In this document: piece after piece, positions 2,679 to 30,266 of the stretch
Layout: each line of letters starts with the position of its first letter
How positions within the stretch are numbered: the first letter of the stretch is position 1
Assembly: GCA_027619975.1 (NCBI GenBank)
Contig: JAQCGX010000032.1
Coordinates: 1 to 38,601 of the forward strand
Source of the DNA: Nitrospinota bacterium
GTDB lineage: Bacteria; Nitrospinota; Nitrospinia; Nitrospinales; VA-1
Reading direction: 5' to 3'
Length of the DNA: 38,601 nucleotides
Made by a program: the position numbers and the translations under genes
The notes under the pieces: generated by a model
Database searches by the model: none
Told to the model about the DNA's origin: nothing
What the model saw: the letters and a program-made list of their open reading frames with translations, nothing else

Positions 2679-4070
2679 CTAGCCCACCATATTGTAACGC
2701 CGGGTCCGGTAATCGACTCCGAATTCTTTTTTGACGATTTCCTCGCAGGCGGTTTCATCCACGTCTTTCTGTTGGGTGACGATGGTGGCCTGTACTTTTG
2801 GAATATATTTTTTTGCCTCGGCGATGAACTCCTTGATCTTGTCGTAAATGCCGTTGCGGAACGCCGGCAGGGGGCGGCAGATTTCGTCGTAGGCTTCGGA
2901 GGTGTCGGTGTTCAAACTGACCGAAACCTCATCGATCAGCCCCTGAAGTTCCGGGAGGATGTTTCTTTTGTTGATGACGTTGCCGTGCCCGTTGGTGTTT
3001 AAGCGCACGCGGCCTCCGGCGGCTTTTATTTTTTTGGCTACCTCTTTGACGACATCGAGCCTCAGTGTCGGTTCGCCGTAGCCGCAGAACACCACCTCGT
3101 CGTATTTGGTCGGATCATCGATCGACTCCCAGACCTCCTGGGCCGTTGGTTCGCGGTCGAGCTTGAGATTGTAGCCTTGCACCACGGGACGGGTGAGACG
3201 TGTGCAGAACACGCAATCGTCCGTGCATCGCGTTGTCAGATTGAGGTAAAGCGAGTTGCGAATCTGGTAAGAAACCGTTCCCGTTGGCGCGTTTTTACCG
3301 ATGCCGAACAATTCAAAGAAGTTCAGTTCCGTGGTCCGTTGAACGTCTTCCACCCGGAGTCCGCGTACCTCGGCAACCAACTGGGCGGTGTGGTGGACGA
3401 AAGAGGGTTCGTTGCGTTTGCCCCGGTTGGGGGCGGGTGTGAGGAACGGGCAGTCGGTCTCGACGAACAGGCGGTCGGCGGGAATGGTTTTTGCAACGGC
3501 GCGAAGCTCGTCCGATTTTTTAAACGTCACAGAGCCTGAGAAGGAGATATAAAATCCCATTTCCAGCGCTTTGTCCGCCAGTTTCTGGTCTCCGGAGAAA
3601 CAATGAAAAATGCCGGAACGGGCTCTGTTATTAGGTTTGTAGAATTCGGACAATATGGAGATCATGTCTTCATTCGCGTCCCGGCAATGGATGATGATGG
3701 GTTTGTCGAGTTCTTTAGCCAGTTCCAGTTGATTTCTGAAATGCGTGCGTTGCAGATCCTGAGGCGAATAGTTTTTGAAATAGTCGAGACCGATTTCCCC
3801 CACCGCCACCATCCTGGGGTGGGCGAGCAGACGTCTCAGTTCGGCATACGTGGTATCGTCGATCGATTTGACGTCATGCGGATGGATGCCCGCCGTGGCA
3901 TAAATGAAATCATATTGTTCCGCCAGCTCCAGCGAGCGGGCGCTACTTTCCACATCACAACCGATATTGAGGATGTAGTCCACGCCATTGGCGCGGGCAC
4001 GCTCAATGACTTCGTCGCGGTCGGCGTCGTATTGGTCCATATCGAGATGGGCGTGGGTGTCGATGATCAT
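2679..4070 (-). CDS. tatD: TatD-family metal-dependent hydrolase fused to radical SAM domain
   Basis: A 463-residue two-domain fusion. Residues 1 to about 258 form a TatD nuclease/hydrolase TIM barrel, with the H6-x-H8 metal motif, VGEIGLDY, IIHCRDA, FHCFSG and VETDCPFL. TatD proteins are Mg-dependent 3'-5' DNases. Residues about 265-463 form a short radical SAM domain with the cluster motif C282-x3-C286-x2-C289 and a GYGEPT motif (the GGE-like SAM-binding strand). A TatD-linked radical SAM family is known both as a separate neighbour and as a fusion; its reaction is not known. The ATG overlaps the metG stop by four bases (ATGA), so translation is coupled to metG. The domain is shorter than a full radical SAM barrel. 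Confidence 0.88.
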   Translation of the reverse strand: MIIDTHAHLDMDQYDADRDEVIERARANGVDYILNIGCDVESSARSLELAEQYDFIYATAGIHPHDVKSIDDTTYAELRRLLAHPRMVAVGEIGLDYFKNYSPQDLQRTHFRNQLELAKELDKPIIIHCRDANEDMISILSEFYKPNNRARSGIFHCFSGDQKLADKALEMGFYISFSGSVTFKKSDELRAVAKTIPADRLFVETDCPFLTPAPNRGKRNEPSFVHHTAQLVAEVRGLRVEDVQRTTELNFFELFGIGKNAPTGTVSYQIRNSLYLNLTTRCTDDCVFCTRLTRPVVQGYNLKLDREPTAQEVWESIDDPTKYDEVVFCGYGEPTLRLDVVKEVAKKIKAAGGRVRLNTNGHGNVINKRNILPELQGLIDEVSVSLNTDTSEAYDEICRPLPAFRNGIYDKIKEFIAEAKKYIPKVQATIVTQQKDVDETACEEIVKKEFGVDYRTRRYNMVG

Positions 4071-6953: not shown

Positions 6954-7973
6954 TTAAGTGGCTTCACAAAACTGAATCAGCATATGATCAAGCGAAAGCT
7001 GCAGGTTGGCGTTGCCGGTTAATGCTGATTTGGTTTTCAGCACCGAATCAAACATGGTGGTCAGAGCTCCCAACGTTTTTTGGGCTGCCAAAGGTTGTAA
7101 ACGGTCCAAAATGTCCTGGTTGAGAATCCGGGTGTTTGCTCCTGGATTTTTCAGGACCGCCAGGTCGCGCACCAGACTCAGCATTTCGTCCAGCAAAGAT
7201 TGTATTTGGGCCGGCTGTTTGGCCCAAAGTCTAGTCCATTTGAAAATCACATCCATGCGTTTGAAAGACACTTTTTCCAACAGGTTCAATACATCTTCCC
7301 GGTAATTCTGGGTGGTCGCAATATCTTCCTCTAAAGCCTTGTTGACTTGACCCATGGATCGTAAGGCCCTCAACTCTAATCCTTCCTCATTAACGTCCCC
7401 GGTTTCTGATTCCTGGGTTTGTTGAAGGATTTGTTTGACCTCTTCCGAAGTCAAGGGGTGAAACTTTACTCCCTGGCAACGGGAGACAATCGTCGGAAGC
7501 AATCGATACGGATTTTGGGTGATCAGGATAAGGACCGTAGCCGATGGCGGTTCCTCCAGTGTTTTTAAAAAGCTATTGGCGGCCTGTGGATTCATGGACT
7601 CAGCGCCATCGATGATTGCTACCTTGGTTTTTCCTTCATAAGGCAGGTAGGCCAGCTTCTTTTGCAATTCACGAATTTCTTCGACCTTTATAAGAGCGTC
7701 TCTTCCCGAGGGCGAACTTTTTCCCGGTTCGAGAAGAAAAAAGTCAGGGTGGATGCGTTGAGCTATTTTTCGGCAGGAGGAGCAATTGTCACAGCACTCC
7801 AGTGGGCCGGAAACCTCACAATTCAAGGTTTTGGCAAATTCGATCGCAGTGAGCTTTTTCCCTATGCTTTCAGGACCATAGAATAAATAAGCGTGCGCTA
7901 CGCTATTGTCCTGAAGCGCATTTTGGATGATTCTTTTGGGCTGGTCCTGACCCAGAATCCGTTGGAATGACAT
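6954..7973 (-). CDS. holB: DNA polymerase III delta' subunit
   Basis: A 339-residue AAA+ clamp-loader subunit. The P-loop region reads FYGPESIGKK (about residues 31-40). A four-Cys zinc module follows near residues 51-68 (CEVSGPLECCDNCSSC). Then come the Walker B-type VAIIDGAESM and the LKTLEEPP segment with TQNPYRLLPTIVSRCQ, the sensor/SRC motif of clamp loaders. The C-terminal part is the helical collar domain and is poorly conserved. It is the first gene of the minus-strand run holB > ricT > metG > tatD. The upstream gap to the divergent ferredoxin is 380 bases and should hold its promoter, though none is clear on this strand. Confidence 0.93.
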   Translation of the reverse strand: MSFQRILGQDQPKRIIQNALQDNSVAHAYLFYGPESIGKKLTAIEFAKTLNCEVSGPLECCDNCSSCRKIAQRIHPDFFLLEPGKSSPSGRDALIKVEEIRELQKKLAYLPYEGKTKVAIIDGAESMNPQAANSFLKTLEEPPSATVLILITQNPYRLLPTIVSRCQGVKFHPLTSEEVKQILQQTQESETGDVNEEGLELRALRSMGQVNKALEEDIATTQNYREDVLNLLEKVSFKRMDVIFKWTRLWAKQPAQIQSLLDEMLSLVRDLAVLKNPGANTRILNQDILDRLQPLAAQKTLGALTTMFDSVLKTKSALTGNANLQLSLDHMLIQFCEAT

Positions 7974-8089
7974 TTTTCTATATAGGTTTCAATCTCTTCC
8001 ATTTTTCAGCAGAAATGAGAACGGGAATTTCCAAGGTTGATAATTTTTTATTTAAAATCGGAAAGTTAAAACGCCTTCCTCTCGCTTTT

Positions 8090-8124
8090 GAGGCGACCCC
8101 TCTTCTCTTTTGGGGCATCGCCTC
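8090..8124. other. hairpin in the holB/ferredoxin divergent gap
   Basis: GAGGCGA-CCCC at 8090-8100 is complementary to GGGG-CA-TCGCCTC at 8112-8124, giving eleven pairs with a two-base bulge and an eleven-base loop. No T-tract follows on either strand, so it is not a standard terminator. It may be a leader structure for holB or a remnant repeat. The rest of 7974-8353 holds the ferredoxin promoter and a dyad; nothing else is seen. Confidence 0.4.
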
Positions 8125-8257
8125 AGAACTCGGTTTATCTTAATACAGCCGCCAGGTGGAGTAAATGAAAAACCATCGATGCGATATGTGGGGGATTCTT
8201 TATGAGGATATTGATATTGAGAAAGAGTTGAAAACTCGAGTAACTTGATGGTTTGTA

Positions 8258-8286
8258 TTGAAAATGGATTAATAATCTGGTAATAA
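8258..8286 (+). promoter_or_regulatory. candidate sigma-70 promoter of the ferredoxin gene
   Basis: TTGAAA (8258-8263) and TAATAA (8281-8286) are spaced by 17 bases, about 68 bases before the ferredoxin ATG. Predicted start of transcription near 8293. Match is fair, not perfect. Confidence 0.4.
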
Positions 8287-8299
8287 TCGCTCTCGTTTT

Positions 8300-8318
8300 G
8301 TTACCATGTAAAGGTAAC
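8300..8318 (+). promoter_or_regulatory. dyad in the ferredoxin leader
   Basis: GTTACC (8300-8305) and GGTAAC (8313-8318) are perfect inverted arms around a seven-base centre, just downstream of the predicted transcription start. This would suit either an operator or a small leader hairpin. No known regulator consensus was recognised. Confidence 0.35.
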
Positions 8319-8353
8319 TGTTTCTCCTTATAAATATACCGATGGGATAGCTC

Positions 8354-8680
8354 ATGGCCGTTAAAGAAAAGGAAAAAAGGAGCGTACAAAGAAAACGAAA
8401 ACCGAAAATAATGGCGGTCATTAACGATGCCTGCACTGGTTGCGGTGGATCCCCGATCTGTATCACCGAGTGTCCCGTTGATAGCTGTATGTATGAGGTC
8501 GAGAACCCGGACGCTCCTATATTCAATCGTGTTGAGGTGGACGCACTTTTATGTATCGGTTGTAAAAAGTGCATCAGCAAGGGGCCCATGGACACGTTTT
8601 TGGAAGGATGCCCGTGGGATGCCATTGATATGGTTCCAATTGATGAGTATGAGGAGAAGTATGGGGTGCTTCCCTACTAA
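8354..8680 (+). CDS. dicluster 4Fe-4S ferredoxin with basic N-terminal extension
   Basis: A 108-residue electron carrier with two 4Fe-4S sites. Cysteines are C27, C30, C36, C40, C45, C67, C70, C73 and C86. By analogy to known ferredoxins, cluster I would use C27/C30/C36 plus C86, and cluster II C67/C70/C73 plus C40. The first motif is CX2CX5C instead of the usual CX2CX2C, and the last Cys follows a 12-residue insertion after CIGCKKC. Residues 1-19 are very basic (KEKEKRSVQRKRKPK) and precede the conserved MAVINDACTGCG start. A shorter start at 8411 is possible, but it lacks a ribosome site just as 8354 nearly does. Monocistronic; it is not obviously linked to a particular oxidoreductase. Confidence 0.85.
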   Translation: MAVKEKEKRSVQRKRKPKIMAVINDACTGCGGSPICITECPVDSCMYEVENPDAPIFNRVEVDALLCIGCKKCISKGPMDTFLEGCPWDAIDMVPIDEYEEKYGVLPY

Positions 8681-8734
8681 CAAGAAATTTTAGTCAAATC
8701 ACTTTCCCGTTTAGGCCATTAAGTATTCTTACCT

Positions 8735-8748
8735 TTGGTGATCATCAA
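8735..8748. promoter_or_regulatory. FNR/CRP-like box upstream of the ATP synthase operon
   Basis: TTGGT-GATC-ATCAA differs from the FNR consensus TTGAT-N4-ATCAA at one position and sits inside a longer near-palindrome (8734-8749). Its centre is about 65 bases upstream of the predicted atp transcription start, close to where class I activators bind. No T-tract follows, so it is unlikely to be the ferredoxin terminator. Whether a CRP/FNR-family protein binds is inferred. Confidence 0.4.
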
Positions 8749-8770
8749 AAAAATAATTCGGAAAACTTTT

Positions 8771-8800
8771 TTGGACAAACAAAACAGGTTGTTGTACTAT
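8771..8800 (+). promoter_or_regulatory. candidate promoter of the atp operon
   Basis: TTGGAC (8771-8776) and TACTAT (8795-8800) are 18 bases apart. The predicted start is near 8807, giving a leader of about 37 bases before the first gene. It is the best sigma-70-like match in the gap after the ferredoxin gene. Confidence 0.5.
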
Positions 8801-8843
8801 AGCCCCGCATTTTCCTTTTAGGCTGTTTCCCCAAAAAAATATA

Positions 8844-9092
8844 ATGAACAAAAGCAACGACTTCCGTCAGGGCTTGGGCGTAGCATTCAGGTTAGGGACG
8901 GAAATGACGGTTGCGACAGGCTTGGGCGCAGTTATGGGGTATGGCGTAGACCATTATTTTGGAACAAAACCCTGGGGGATTGCAGTGGGTGTTGTATTAG
9001 GGGGAGCTGCAGGGATGCTCAATGTCTACTGGGCCGCCCAGGCTATGACAAAAGAACTCGAAAACAGCGATCAAGAAAAAAATAACGACTAA
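8844..9092 (+). CDS. atpZ: AtpZ/AtpI-family ATP synthase accessory protein
   Basis: An 82-residue small membrane protein with two predicted helices (about residues 17-37 and 42-66). It carries the family signature of a Gly-rich first helix, GYGVDHYFGTKPWG in the turn, and GGAAGMLNVYWA in the second helix. Proteins of this group (ATPase_gene1, AtpZ/AtpI) sit first in atp operons and help c-ring assembly or Mg/Ca uptake for the synthase. The C-terminus is short and charged. Only a weak ribosome site is visible. It is 24 bases ahead of atpB and is the presumed first gene of the operon. AtpI and AtpZ cannot be separated by eye at this length. Confidence 0.85.
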   Translation: MNKSNDFRQGLGVAFRLGTEMTVATGLGAVMGYGVDHYFGTKPWGIAVGVVLGGAAGMLNVYWAAQAMTKELENSDQEKNND

Positions 9093-9116
9093 AGACAAGG
9101 ACGATCAAAATAAACT

Positions 9117-9848
9117 ATGGAAAGTCCCTTACATCATTTTGAACTGCATGCCATCATTCCCTTAAGCGTTATGGGGGTTGATATTTCCATCAACAAGGCG
9201 GTCATCGCCATGTGGGTGGGGTTGGTCATAGTATTCGGGTTGTTCATGCTGGTCGTGAATAGAGGGACGAAAGTGGTGCCGGGAAAACTGCAAAGCGTGT
9301 TTGAAATCGCTTTGGAGTTTATCAAGGGCATGGTGGATGAATTTATCGGCAAGGAAGAAGGCAAGAAGTATTTTTCGTTTGTGGCCACAGTGTTCATTTT
9401 TATTTTGACGTGCAACCTGATCGGGTTGGTTCCGGGGTCTTACACCATCACCAGCCAGATTGCTGTCACCGGCGTGTTTGCGGTGGGCATTTTCTTGATG
9501 ACACTGGTGATCGGGTTCGCAAAGCACGGGTTGCATTTTCTTACTATTTTGGTCCCTCCCGGAATTCCTAAAGTCATGATTCCGGTCATGATTCCCATAG
9601 AAATTATAAGTATGCTGGCCCGTCCCCTGTCCCTTTCCGTGCGGTTGTTTGCGAACATGACGGCAGGGCATACGGTTTTGGCCGTTCTGTTTGGACTGGC
9701 AATGAGTGCATCCCTGTGGATCGGGTGGATGCCATTTGGGTTTACGGTAATCATCAACGGATTGGAAATCGCGATTGCCTTTATTCAAGCCTATATCTTC
9801 ACCACTCTGACGTGTGTTTATATTGGCGACGTGATCAAGTTACATTAA
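9117..9848 (+). CDS. atpB: ATP synthase Fo subunit a
   Basis: A 243-residue polytopic membrane subunit that forms the proton half-channels against the c-ring. The essential arginine is R176 in the motif SLSVRLFANMTAGH, followed by the GLEIAIAFIQAYIFTTLT helix typical of the last two segments. The N-terminal ESPLHHFELH element resembles the usual start of bacterial subunit a. About five to six membrane helices can be seen. Length is normal. An AAGGA lies rather far (15 bases) upstream of the ATG. Confidence 0.96.
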   Translation: MESPLHHFELHAIIPLSVMGVDISINKAVIAMWVGLVIVFGLFMLVVNRGTKVVPGKLQSVFEIALEFIKGMVDEFIGKEEGKKYFSFVATVFIFILTCNLIGLVPGSYTITSQIAVTGVFAVGIFLMTLVIGFAKHGLHFLTILVPPGIPKVMIPVMIPIEIISMLARPLSLSVRLFANMTAGHTVLAVLFGLAMSASLWIGWMPFGFTVIINGLEIAIAFIQAYIFTTLTCVYIGDVIKLH

Positions 9849-18482: not shown

Positions 18483-19340
18483 CTATCGTCTCTTTTCAAT
18501 TTCCTGGTAGGCAAGTGTATCCATTAAGCTTTCTTCGTTTCCAAAAAGTGAGAAAGCGTTAATGTTCATGAGGTCAAGTTTCCTCAGAACCTTTTTTCTC
18601 TCCGTGGAGGGAATAATATACTTCCTTAGGAAGTCTTGACTGTCACCAAATGTAACTTTTTCGTGACTGGTAAAAATTCTGTTATTGGGGTTACCGTAAA
18701 CAAATCCGCTACCTGTAGGCTCAATAAAGCAAACTGTGTACTCACCTTGCTGTTGATAATGTCTTTTGTGTGCCACTACGTCAGAACCTAACCCTAAAAT
18801 TTGAGGCGTATTTGAACTCGCCGATTTAAACCAGAGCTCTTTTTCCAAAAATGAATAAATAGCAACGTCCTCATCCATCTCATCCTTTGAGTCATTGAAT
18901 GCAAAATAGCCGCTCACGTAAGGAGAACGCGTCCAATCCAATAAGGGTGATGGAAAACCATGATGCCGTATATAAATCATGAATTCATAATAAGAAGGTT
19001 CTTTAGCTAATGGATCATTGGAAAATTTTTCAAACTCAGGCTTGTTTGCCAGTGAATTAATCGCGGGCTTAACAGCCTTAAGAATATTTAAATATTCTTC
19101 CTGAGAGTATTCCCGCTTAGTCACCTTTTTATCTCTAACATATCTTTCAAGAGTTGTTTCCAATGGCCAACAAGCGTTTTTTTGGCCTCTAAATAAAAGG
19201 TTAGGAACCTTAGGGTAACTTTTTTTTAATTCCTCATGAGATTGGTATTCCTCCTCAATTGCATCTTCAAATTCTTCCCAACTTTTTAAAGGAATTTTCT
19301 TTATGCTAGAATTTTTATCTTTCTTTGATTCATGAGACAT
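18483..19340 (-). CDS. FRG domain-containing protein
   Basis: A 285-residue protein with the FRG domain, named for its conserved F/Y-R-G motif. Seen here are NLLFRGQ with W-P-L-x-T-x-x-E-R downstream (about residues 47-67) and the second signature HHGFPSPLLDWTRSPYVSGYFAF (given in parts: HHGFPSPLLDWT, then SGYFAF). FRG proteins are found widely in accessory regions and have no firm biochemical function; some occur with phage defence genes. Its base composition is about 35-40% G+C in sampled lines, against about 50-55% in ubiD and uvrA, so recent transfer is likely. The ATG starts two bases after the ubiD stop, and its AAAGGAG lies inside the end of ubiD. No signal peptide or membrane segment. 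Confidence 0.8.
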   Translation of the reverse strand: MSHESKKDKNSSIKKIPLKSWEEFEDAIEEEYQSHEELKKSYPKVPNLLFRGQKNACWPLETTLERYVRDKKVTKREYSQEEYLNILKAVKPAINSLANKPEFEKFSNDPLAKEPSYYEFMIYIRHHGFPSPLLDWTRSPYVSGYFAFNDSKDEMDEDVAIYSFLEKELWFKSASSNTPQILGLGSDVVAHKRHYQQQGEYTVCFIEPTGSGFVYGNPNNRIFTSHEKVTFGDSQDFLRKYIIPSTERKKVLRKLDLMNINAFSLFGNEESLMDTLAYQEIEKRR

Positions 19341-27931: not shown

Positions 27932-28276
27932 AACTTCCTTCGGCTAAAGTATGCCCTTGCCTCCATTCTGCGGGGCTCATTTTCTAATGAAAAAAGGGTT
28001 CTTTTTTTTCAATCACTCGGTCCCACGGGTGTCACTCCTTTTAGCAAAACATTCCTAACTTCTTGACAATTCTGGTTTGCAGGATGATAGAATAGCTGGA
28101 AATTTCCCCACGCCTGTAATCATTCTGGATTATTATTTCTGATCCGAGTTGCAGCGGAAGCGGACCGCAGGGCGGAATCGCGCGGTATTGAGGAATTTTT
28201 TGGAACCGTTCCTTTTTGCAAAGGTGCGTTTGTTTCGTATTACTATTTTGCTCAATGATCAATGGAGATATGAATA
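27932..28276 (+). promoter_or_regulatory. gene-free region with candidate promoter and long leader
   Basis: No credible gene is seen here. An A/T-rich hairpin, TGAAAAAAG paired with the C-T8-CA run, occupies 27988-28011 and may act as a terminator for upstream transcripts. A perfect -35 TTGACA lies at 28063-28068, with GATAGA (17-base spacing) or TAGAAT (19-base spacing) around 28086-28093 as -10. From there a leader of about 170 bases precedes the GTG start at 28277. The leader has G/C-rich stretches (28145-28190) but no riboswitch motif that I can name. Confidence 0.4.
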
Positions 28277-28600
28277 GTGGGACCTGTAACGGTAGAGGCA
28301 GTCCGAGAGGCTCAGGAACTCCTCAAAAGCGGAATGAGTCATCACGAGAAAAAAGACTTCAGCGAAGCGGTTGAGGATTTTAAGAAGGTAGCGTTAATTC
28401 ATCCTTTTGATGAAAATCATCTTCCCGAACTTGAAAAAAAATTAAAGGCGGGTGGTTATAAAAAACAGCAGGAAAGTATTGCCTTCATGGGATGCGCTTC
28501 GGTACACCTGCAGCATTTAGCTCAGCAATTGAGCAATGACCAAAAAGCTGAAGTGCCTATCGATGAACAGTTTGTTGAAATTTTCAAAGAATGGGAGTGA
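28277..28600 (+). CDS. small TPR-like helical protein next to radical SAM gene
   Basis: A 107-residue protein, mainly alpha-helical. Residues about 9-45 (EAQELLKSGMSHHEKKDFSE, then AVEDFKKVALIHPFDENH) resemble one tetratricopeptide repeat plus a capping helix. The C-terminal half (LQHLAQQLSNDQKAEVPIDE) is a further helical pair. No family is recognised. The start is GTG at 28277 with GGAG nine bases upstream; an ATG at 28270 is out of frame. It precedes the radical SAM gene by 75 bases on the same strand and may supply a substrate-binding or adaptor role. That role is inference only. Confidence 0.68.
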   Translation: MGPVTVEAVREAQELLKSGMSHHEKKDFSEAVEDFKKVALIHPFDENHLPELEKKLKAGGYKKQQESIAFMGCASVHLQHLAQQLSNDQKAEVPIDEQFVEIFKEWE

Positions 28601-28675
28601 CTGGATTCGAATCTCCAGCTCATGGCAGTGCGTCGATGAGAATTGATCTTAAAAGACAGGGAAGGAAGGTTGGCA

Positions 28676-29878
28676 GTGGATAAAGAATTTCTTCATAACG
28701 TTTTCAGAGCCGAAATCAAGGATCGGAAGATTCCTTTAAGCCTGGGTAAAACCTGCCCGGTGAAGTGTGCATTTTGTTACGAGAAAGACCACAGCTACCG
28801 AACAACCTTCGATACCCCCCGCTCCACTCAGGAAGATTGGGATTTCATTTTTAATGAGATTCAGAAATACCCCACCAAGAAGGACGAATCGTGGGTCCTG
28901 GGTGGCAACGAATATATGGAATGGACGGATCTGCCTCTGCATCCCAAGGCTTTGGATTGGGTCGAGGAGTTTCTTGAGAAGACCGATAAAAATATCATCA
29001 TGTTTACCGTTGGGTACACGGACCCGGTACGAATCAATAAACTGGCCGAAAGATTCCCCGGCAGAATAAATTTTGAATTGTCGGTGATCACCCTGGGCGA
29101 AGCCCGGAAAAAGCTGATGCCCAATGGCCCCAGCGTTAAACAGGTGCTTGAAATACTGGATGGTCCGGCGGTGACATCCGCCAATTTTTATTCCTTCGGA
29201 GCGAACACCATGTCGGAGGACGCCCGAACGATTTCTAAGATCAATCCCAATGTTTTGCTCTGGATGGGATGCCTGACGCCCCTGAAATATATCGATCCCG
29301 ACACCACCGCCCTGATGCGGTACGGAAAAAAATTCCTTGCAGAGGAAGCACGGAAAATTTACGGTTTTGATCTTCCCAATATCATGATGTTGCATACGGA
29401 ATCGGATATCACTTCCTTTTTGAACCGTAAAAAAATCATAAAAGTTTTTGACGCCTGTGAGTTGGATAAAAAAGATACCGTGGTGATGGCCGGGAATGTT
29501 TACAAGGTTTTGACGATGTTCCGTCAGAATCGAGCAAAATTTCTTTATGTGCCCAACAGTACCCTCGGCGGGGATTCCAATTGCACGACACTATTGACGT
29601 TCAGCGATGTTGCCAAGCGATTGACGGGGCAAACCCGAGTTTATTTACCCAAAGTCATACTGGAAAAGTCGTCTCAAGAGGAAATGGACATTTCGGGAGA
29701 AACTTTTGACGAATTCAAAGCCAAATTTCCCCGTTGCACTTTCAAAGTCTTGAATAAAGTGAATTCCAAGCTATCCAATAAAAAATTGTATGAAAAAGGA
29801 TATTTGAAAAATTACGTGGAAGATTATCTGGGGGACCCCTTGTCAAAGAAATTTGAAATGATGGCCTCTCCGAATTGA
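28676..29878 (+). CDS. uncharacterised radical SAM enzyme
   Basis: A 400-residue radical SAM protein. The 4Fe-4S motif is C27-x3-C31-x2-C34 (CPVKCAFC). WVLGGNEYMEW occupies the place of the SAM-binding GGE strand, though the Glu is displaced. The rest reads as a full TIM barrel, ending with a basic helical tail. Two later Cys (in MGCLTP and DSNCTT) are not in a SPASM-like array, so only one cluster is certain. The start is GTG at 28676, six bases after GGAAGGAAGG; a TTG at 28643 lacks a site. The substrate is unknown. It lies between a small TPR-like protein and a 60-residue protein. Confidence 0.85.
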   Translation: MDKEFLHNVFRAEIKDRKIPLSLGKTCPVKCAFCYEKDHSYRTTFDTPRSTQEDWDFIFNEIQKYPTKKDESWVLGGNEYMEWTDLPLHPKALDWVEEFLEKTDKNIIMFTVGYTDPVRINKLAERFPGRINFELSVITLGEARKKLMPNGPSVKQVLEILDGPAVTSANFYSFGANTMSEDARTISKINPNVLLWMGCLTPLKYIDPDTTALMRYGKKFLAEEARKIYGFDLPNIMMLHTESDITSFLNRKKIIKVFDACELDKKDTVVMAGNVYKVLTMFRQNRAKFLYVPNSTLGGDSNCTTLLTFSDVAKRLTGQTRVYLPKVILEKSSQEEMDISGETFDEFKAKFPRCTFKVLNKVNSKLSNKKLYEKGYLKNYVEDYLGDPLSKKFEMMASPN

Positions 29879-29921
29879 ATCCTGCCCCTGGTCTTTAGGT
29901 CAAATTGGAAAAGGAGAAAGC

Positions 29922-30104
29922 ATGCAGTACAGGTTGAAAGTGGTGTTTGTCGATAATCAGGAATTGGAATGCGAGCAGACGGAAAAGCACGGCTTCAGTG
30001 ACGATTTGGAATTGTTCGAAATTACCACAGCGGACGAGGTCATTGTGGTGCCTCTCAAACAGATAAAATACATCTCCTGTGATTCCAAAATATTTAAAAA
30101 TTAG
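29922..30104 (+). CDS. 60-residue protein downstream of radical SAM gene
   Basis: A 60-residue protein with an excellent ribosome site (AAAAGGAG, then AAAGC before the ATG). It is predicted as a small beta-rich fold (YRLKVVFVDNQELECEQTEK, then EVIVVPLKQIKYISCD), with two Cys at residues 17 and 53. It looks like a folded domain and not like a RiPP precursor with leader and core. It follows the radical SAM stop by 43 bases, and a strong terminator lies 91 bases beyond it, so it is the last gene of the cluster. I do not recognise the family. Confidence 0.68.
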   Translation: MQYRLKVVFVDNQELECEQTEKHGFSDDLELFEITTADEVIVVPLKQIKYISCDSKIFKN

Positions 30105-30194
30105 AGGAGTTGCCGGTCAAGAAACCGGTTGCAAGCAAGGCGGATTTGAAACAGGTGGCTGATTGGTTTGATGGCTTCACCCTCGTTCAGAGCA

Positions 30195-30224
30195 AAAATG
30201 ACAGAAGTTGATCTTCGTCATTTT
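30195..30224. terminator. bidirectional intrinsic terminator
   Basis: AAAATGAC (30195-30202) pairs with GTCATTTT (30217-30224), and GAAG (30204-30207) with CTTC (30213-30216), leaving a single bulged A and a five-base loop. Twelve pairs with flanking A and T runs make this a good terminator for the cluster ending at 30104 and for the opposing gene at 30267-30656. The short stretch 30105-30194 carries only a 33-codon TTG-started frame with a badly placed ribosome site. Confidence 0.7.
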
Positions 30225-30266
30225 GCCGTGAACAGAGAAGTACGATGCGGTGAAATGATTGCAGGC

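Follow-up and report, generated by a model that had tools for sequence, protein, structure and literature searches.

The window analysed here is the whole stretch of 38,601 nucleotides read from contig JAQCGX010000032.1 (C32), one of the 72 contigs of a Nitrospinota genome; where the records of its nearest relatives carry a name, they belong to Nitrospinaceae and other Nitrospinota. It contains three genes on the forward strand (28277-28600, 28643-29878 and 29922-30104), as an earlier description of this DNA had stated, which encode a small TPR-like protein, a radical S-adenosylmethionine (SAM) protein, referred to here as rSAM, and a 60-residue protein, B60. Calculations on predicted structures and sequence profiles place rSAM beside the Mmp10 and DUF512 enzymes, and rSAM and B60 are well supported as a co-inherited unit in which B60 is the firm partner. 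We see even chances that rSAM is a class-2 cobalamin-dependent C-methylase whose target is B60 or a protein that B60 presents. The narrower version of this proposal, in which B60 would be the dedicated substrate of a hitherto undescribed methylase of the class-2 cobalamin radical SAM type and would be C-methylated in its SDDxE loop, is put forward tentatively. Cobalamin binding, methylation and the protein nature of the target are what we infer.

Predicted to consist, as in Mmp10 and the DUF512 enzymes, of a radical SAM barrel and then a corrinoid-binding domain of four strands, rSAM would use a first SAM molecule to methylate cob(I)alamin. A second SAM would be reductively cleaved to a 5'-deoxyadenosyl radical that abstracts a hydrogen from the target carbon, and the target radical would then accept the methyl group from methylcobalamin. 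This radical C-methylation, proposed by analogy with Mmp10, would consume two SAM molecules per turnover. B60 would be the dedicated partner, either as the methylated substrate, with its invariant H..SDDxE..E loop as the obvious candidate site, or as an adaptor presenting the target; it is the natural candidate for these roles because it is both conserved and co-inherited. The TPR-like protein would be an accessory, seen in Nitrospinota.

Relationship of rSAM to cobalamin-dependent enzymes

Conservation in rSAM was counted over an alignment of 55 rows that includes the window protein, with residues numbered on the 411-residue form. The CX3CX2C cluster motif of the radical SAM superfamily (C38, C42 and C45) is invariant, and the third Cys is directly followed by Tyr in 55 of 55 rows. 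The Glu of the GGE motif, previously described as displaced, is shifted by one residue in a GGNE motif, whose two Gly and Asn are invariant and whose Glu is kept in 53 of the 55 rows. Besides the cluster cysteines, strong conservation is seen only at C314 (55/55) and C210 (54/55), C272 and C365 being present in 37 and 14 rows, respectively. The C-terminal Cys array for auxiliary clusters of the SPASM/Twitch maturases of ribosomally synthesised and post-translationally modified peptides (RiPPs) is thus absent from the alignment, as had been noted. With regard to family profiles, the window protein reaches none of the curated cut-offs, in agreement with its initial assignment to an uncharacterised radical SAM family. 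Its score against Pfam Radical_SAM, 27.8 bits, is slightly below the cut-off of 29.5, and 53 of the 55 rows match this family at E<=1. A search of PDB sequences with rSAM or its profile returned no radical SAM match; such matches appeared only on comparison of folds and of profile with profile.

The AlphaFold2 model built from the 55-row alignment (mean predicted local distance difference test score, pLDDT, 84.6) comprises a radical SAM core at approximately residues 26-240 and a putative cobalamin-binding domain at approximately 245-400, with bounds read off the model; all structural statements on rSAM and B60 are predictions. By prediction, therefore, rSAM has the class-2 arrangement, in which the radical SAM core leads into a four-stranded corrinoid domain at the C-terminus. 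When the model was compared with the PDB by Foldseek, places one to six went to five Mmp10 chains and a single DUF512 enzyme, that of Pyrococcus furiosus (E 3.6e-8 to 2.5e-6), with DesII (E 8.1e-4) in seventh place. VIA-align likewise matched both domains to P. furiosus DUF512 (9cg2; Z 18.2, 298 residues, root mean square deviation 4.4, model residues 26-374) and to Mmp10 (7qbs; Z 17.3, 320 residues, deviation 4.3, model residues 26-386), and the next match, spore photoproduct lyase (Z 13.3), covered the radical SAM half only.

The comparison of profiles points in the same direction. Twenty-five Nitrospirota DUF512 loci were fetched, and the 17 proteins retained by a motif filter were aligned into a DUF512 profile, to which rSAM was aligned by hhalign as a single pair with Prob 96 and E 1.7e-9 (Prob 95.5 and E 1.5e-8 in the reverse direction). 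The C-terminal part alone gave E 1.4e-4, compared with 0.053-0.65 for eight column shuffles and 0.38 for the reversed profile; a class-1 B12 radical SAM family, taken as a further control, gave 0.051 when compared with the C-terminal part and 0.005 with the whole protein. As mapped by alignment, L317 is the counterpart of L366 of csDUF512, the Leu below the cobalt, and it is found in 55 of 55 rows within a corrin-facing LLT..D segment that is invariant in rSAM. It had been suggested that the system could lack a link to known radical SAM systems, a view that is not supported, since fold and profile tie rSAM to the cobalamin-dependent Mmp10 and DUF512 enzymes.

A number of observations weigh against this placement and the function proposed from it. 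The window protein scores only 13.8 bits against DUF512 (PF04459, cut-off 25 bits), and sub-threshold matches to this family at E<=1 are found in 29 of the 55 rows, the best at 1.8e-4. TM-scores of the structural matches are moderate (0.44-0.54), and the second DUF512 structure, 9cg1 (Z 13.1), does not rank above spore photoproduct lyase. The bulk of the profile signal comes from the radical SAM half (E 2.1e-10 by itself), and Prob is just 52.9 when the C-terminal part is compared separately. The four-Cys iron loop of Mmp10 is lacking, the window protein having no Cys between C45 and C210, and the position matching the cluster-binding Tyr of Mmp10 (Y125, placed by model position and not by alignment) is Tyr in 41 rows and Phe in 14. 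Moreover, the Thr that hydrogen-bonds the dimethylbenzimidazole tail of cobalamin is not kept: it aligns to M282, which is Met in 45, Val in 9 and Ala in 1 of the 55 rows, in a region where the alignment could be off by a small number of residues. With the tail-anchoring Thr replaced, either the tail must be bound in another way or the enzyme may no longer bind cobalamin.

This last possibility, that rSAM has lost cobalamin and modifies a protein in some other way, such as by epimerisation or crosslinking, draws on the unconserved Thr and the low DUF512 score. We hold it to be improbable, since the LLT..D segment, which contains the lower-axial Leu, does not vary and the C-terminal domain is retained complete in the predicted fold and stands above the controls in the profile comparison. 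Because the tail Thr and the four-Cys loop are missing and the Tyr-ligand position is not strictly kept, rSAM appears, as far as sequence and model can tell, to be a new family beside Mmp10 and DUF512, not inside either of them.

A separate observation concerns C314 (window positions 29582-29584), which lies three residues ahead of L317. Its counterpart in DUF512 is mostly Val, and its side chain could face the corrin.

B60 and its co-inheritance with rSAM

B60 is predicted to be a compact five-stranded barrel of the Sm/Hfq-like type (pLDDT 91). In an alignment of 32 sequences from both phyla, Nitrospinota and Nitrospirota, 13 positions are reported as invariant, including H23, S26, D27, D28, E30, E33 and C53, and the residues H23..S26-D27-D28-x-E30..E33 sit in and beside one loop. 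No Pfam family was matched at its cut-off, and the B60 profile found no PDB sequence at E <= 10. The conserved loop and the barrel favour a site of recognition or modification and disfavour a RiPP precursor, in which a short unstructured leader and a variable core, neither of them found here, would be expected; the window sequence had already given the same impression.

The nearest folds to B60 are small DUF903-type and other uncharacterised lipoproteins, and Hfq. A similarity to Hfq raises the idea that B60 binds RNA and guides rSAM, as an enzyme of the same class, to methylate RNA, and sub-threshold matches to ROF, a Rho modulator, in 8 of the 32 rows (best E 0.028) go along with it. Nonetheless, these fold matches have Z of only 6-7 and Foldseek E >= 0.008, so that the likeness to Hfq and DUF903 proteins may be just the common small-barrel arrangement. 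Several of the invariant residues are acidic (D27, D28, E30 and E33), unlike an RNA-binding face, and Mmp10, the closest characterised enzyme, acts on a protein. An RNA target therefore seems quite unlikely to us.

Relatives of rSAM at E <= 1e-20 are present in 59 of the 77 Nitrospinota genomes, well beyond what chance would give. Among the 60 nearest genomes, rSAM is present in 51, and the TPR-like gene and B60 in 49 each, so the three genes do occur together elsewhere; of the two findings that the preliminary description named as refuting it, a characterised family for rSAM and separation of the genes in other genomes, neither was made. Two genomes have rSAM but no B60: in G023 the contig stops directly behind rSAM, and in G025 the rSAM match covers the first half only; those with no TPR-like gene are G035, in which the start of the rSAM match is missing, and G056. 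None of the nine genomes devoid of rSAM has either B60 or the TPR-like gene. Loci with named records were taken as the best 80 of 117 relatives found with exact back-translated 8-mers of the window rSAM, by which distant relatives would be missed. Title or identity assigns all 80 to Nitrospinota or Nitrospirota. On the grounds of identity and synteny, 53 were counted as Nitrospinota, L104, L147 and L148 among them despite their titles of Nitrospirae or Nitrospirota, and the other 27 are Nitrospirota. The Nitrospinota loci contain B60 in 52 cases and the TPR-like gene in 51, and those that miss one (L128 for B60, L113 and L149 for the TPR-like gene) have rSAM at the locus end.

The TPR-like gene is thus a constant neighbour across the Nitrospinota order, and it is supported only as such. 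It was not found in G056, a genome of another Nitrospinota family that is 96% complete and has rSAM, nor around rSAM in the 27 Nitrospirota loci, whole Nitrospirota genomes not having been searched for it. Its name is justified, though weakly: in the window protein Pfam TPR_1 stays under its cut-off, and 16 of 25 rows match at E <= 0.1, the best at 3.5e-6. The invariant columns are K62, Q65, E66, G72, C73, A74 and H77. The idea of one system is supported for rSAM and B60, and for the TPR-like gene only in part.

The pairing of rSAM and B60 extends to Nitrospirota. In the 27 loci of this phylum, rSAM has 54-59% identity and surroundings that differ from those in Nitrospinota, and B60 directly follows it in five (L154-L156, L162 and L163). 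Three of these five were inspected, and ProC lies directly upstream in L163 (by family match) and L154 (by eye), not in L156. The adjacent pair is therefore seen in three gene contexts, namely Nitrospinaceae, G056 and the five Nitrospirota loci. Among ten Nitrospira-type loci fetched for B60, the eight that display it all have it behind ProC, away from rSAM. A search for B60 was positive in 16 of 17 Nitrospirota genomes behind the loci of this phylum and found none in G077. Neighbouring Nitrospirota genes for PhzF-like, alcohol dehydrogenase and ProC proteins are treated as bystanders.

A wider sample comprised 345 Nitrospirota genomes, taken from the phylum to which G088, the Nitrospira sp. 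genome of L169, belongs. rSAM occurs in 68 and B60 in 70; both are found in 67, rSAM only in one (G401), B60 only in three (G370, G376 and G422), and neither in 274. The two genes share a contig in 23 of the 67 genomes with both and are less than 2 kb apart in only one of these, so linkage is not the cause of their co-occurrence. That they occur together in two phyla even when unlinked is what supports them as a unit. DUF512 proteins above the Pfam cut-off were detected in 112 of 188 Nitrospirota genomes searched, and none of the 112 is among the 68 with rSAM.

Fisher p values for the co-occurrence take no account of common ancestry and are not used here as a measure of strength. Given the shared descent of these genomes, a proxy tree was built from one class-1 radical SAM protein, for 100 of the 102 genomes that have the gene; it is a quick single-gene tree and not a species tree. 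On it, rSAM needs at least five state changes, three of which are forced by well-supported branches. B60 tracks rSAM in approximately 2.9 of three independent contrasts and goes the opposite way in none. A further point speaks against our proposal here: the sign test gives p 0.25, since three contrasts, from few independent events, cannot reach significance.

The surroundings of rSAM in Nitrospira suggest another role, in which it would work in a small-molecule or lipid pathway with two class-1 B12-binding radical SAM enzymes whose genes immediately precede its own. Out of 13 Nitrospirota loci inspected, seven clearly place rSAM after such a pair, three are cut or were misread by the simple open reading frame caller, and three have another context; at E <= 1e-30, 67 of the 77 Nitrospinota genomes also have a class-1 homologue. 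The profiles differ, however, as 36 of the 100 Nitrospirota genomes with a fetched class-1 gene have neither rSAM nor B60. Furthermore, there is no class-1 gene among the mapped Nitrospinota neighbours (window genes only), and class-1 genes leave B60 unexplained, which makes this pathway a doubtful alternative to a methylase acting on B60 or on a target that it presents.

The best 80 of the 117 relatives come from lineages that include known nitrite oxidisers (Nitrospinaceae and Nitrospira), which brings to mind a maturation of nitrite oxidoreductase (NXR) comparable to that of methyl-coenzyme M reductase (MCR) by Mmp10. This was disfavoured by co-occurrence and appears highly improbable. A close NxrA-like match is present in 97 Nitrospirota genomes, among which G235 and G302 were included without their identity having been viewed. 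Of the 97, 53 have rSAM and B60, three have one of them and 41 have neither, and 14 of the 68 rSAM-bearing genomes have no close NxrA-like match, some perhaps owing to assembly gaps. In Nitrospinota, G056 has rSAM and B60 and yet just E 3.6e-6 in a search for dimethyl sulfoxide reductase II family proteins, and G055 and G059 have long Nitrospinaceae-like matches but no rSAM. The query, from the window's genome, is presumed to be NxrA-like, in part by its length.

The locus and its surroundings

The features of the cluster are listed in the table below. With the TTG start for rSAM, the intergenic gaps are 42 and 43 bases. GTG 28676 is the likelier start because it is preceded by a good ribosome site, GGAAGGAAGG, and with it the numbering first given to the cluster cysteines (C27/C31/C34) holds. 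Relatives, fragments excepted, align from residue 5-16 of the 411-residue form.

Features of the rSAM cluster in the window
Feature	Position	Strand	Remarks
TPR-like small protein	28277..28600	+	Open reading frame, 107 aa, GTG start
Radical SAM protein (rSAM), predicted Mmp10/DUF512 superfamily	28676..29878	+	400 aa from likely GTG; 411 aa from TTG 28643
B60, 60-aa protein, predicted Sm/Hfq-like barrel	29922..30104	+	Open reading frame; conserved partner of rSAM
Weak promoter-like site	28063..28093	+	TTGACA, 19-base spacer, TAGAAT; absent from promoter scan list
Hairpin 3' of the cluster	30180..30240	+	No T tract, not a standard terminator; approximate bounds

The flanking signals are weaker than first thought. 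Upstream, where a good promoter had been proposed, the TTGACA is perfect, but the sole good -10 element lies at the long spacer. Downstream, the supposed strong terminator corresponds to hairpins, none followed by a T tract, that the terminator scan does not list; the sequence behind the cluster has a somewhat more favourable fold than its shuffled versions (z -2.1, with 6 of 200 shuffles equal or better). The wider region is largely syntenic in Nitrospinota, with genes that we take, from their sequences, to encode BirA upstream and HemB and a penicillin-binding protein downstream, together with a helix-turn-helix protein, also downstream, whose domain was assigned by family match. Gene order within Nitrospinota alone is therefore no proof of a system.

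Other genes in the window include a single open reading frame (2679-4070, reverse strand) that fuses a TatD-type nuclease and a TatD-linked radical SAM domain, both above cut-off (TIGR00010, 303 bits; TIGR04038, 256 bits), and an adjacent pair encoding Slp-family outer-membrane lipoproteins (PF03843; 25687-26235 and 26250-26753, forward strand). An FRG-domain protein (PF08867) is encoded at 18483-19340 on the reverse strand, flanked by genes that are presumably uvrA-like and ubiD-like.

In Nitrospira-type loci, a protein of approximately 83-148 residues is encoded divergently just upstream of rSAM (L167:9510-9812, reverse strand, and also L151, L153, L161, L166, L172 and L174). It is somewhat J-domain-like by eye, and no Pfam or NCBIfam family matches the copy in L167. 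As for other B12-binding radical SAM genes, the window's genome gives five class-1 matches, and gene pairs are seen in Nitrospira (L169:5520-7406 and 7412-9364, below the NCBIfam cut-offs) and in Nitrospinota (L239:7052-10688). Contig C17 of the window's genome also has a B12 radical SAM gene of the RiPP-maturation type (TIGR03975, 608 bits; L240:10268-12115, reverse strand), beside which a 107-residue Cys-containing open reading frame with no family match (L240:9902-10225, reverse strand) lies approximately 5.5 kb from the NxrA-like gene.

Comparison with known systems and significance

Mmp10, the methyl-coenzyme M reductase arginine C-methyltransferase (PDB 7QBS-7QBV), is described as a protein of 411 residues with a four-Cys iron loop (PMC8828468). 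Similar to rSAM are its length, its two domains, the CX3CX2C motif followed by Tyr, and the C-terminal corrinoid-type domain with a Leu below the cobalt. rSAM differs in lacking the iron loop, in its low identity (12%), in its GGNE in place of GGD, in Phe at the cluster-binding Tyr position in some rows, and in having B60 as a partner. To our knowledge, no MCR is known in these bacteria.

The DUF512 enzymes (csDUF512, 9CG1; pfDUF512, 9CG2) provide the best structural match, profile homology and the shared LLT..D corrin segment. Conversely, rSAM has no PDZ domain, a shorter cluster loop in the alignment and DHS in place of DDD, besides its score under the Pfam cut-off and the Met or Val at the tail-anchoring Thr. 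DUF512 domains are reported to bind cobalamin, the four DUF512 enzymes studied form methylcobalamin from SAM, and the cobalamin domain of class-1 enzymes is N-terminal (PMC11659888, PMC13331322). The class-1 methylases (TsrM and TokK; NCBIfam PhpK and rSAM_ocin_1) would share with rSAM the presumed methylcobalamin and radical SAM chemistry, and are set apart by that domain order and by the class-1 profile control. With regard to B60, small barrels of the Hfq/Sm and DUF903 types have a similar predicted five-stranded fold, and B60 is unlike them in its acidic invariant loop and in the absence of a Pfam match at cut-off or a PDB sequence match.

Which reactions the DUF512 enzymes catalyse is a question posed in a 2025 review, whose sections consulted here name no partner or substrate (PMC13331322). 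Among the literature on nitrite oxidisers and radical SAM enzymes, judged by title, we found no paper on such a system, and the main text of two papers examined does not contain the term 'radical SAM'. A relative of DUF512 and Mmp10 with a tiny co-inherited partner would reduce the question of the substrate to a simple in vitro test. If B60 is the substrate, rSAM would be the first enzyme of the DUF512-like kind whose target has been identified, and its activity would constitute an unrecognised reason for the vitamin B12 need of the ocean's main nitrite oxidisers.

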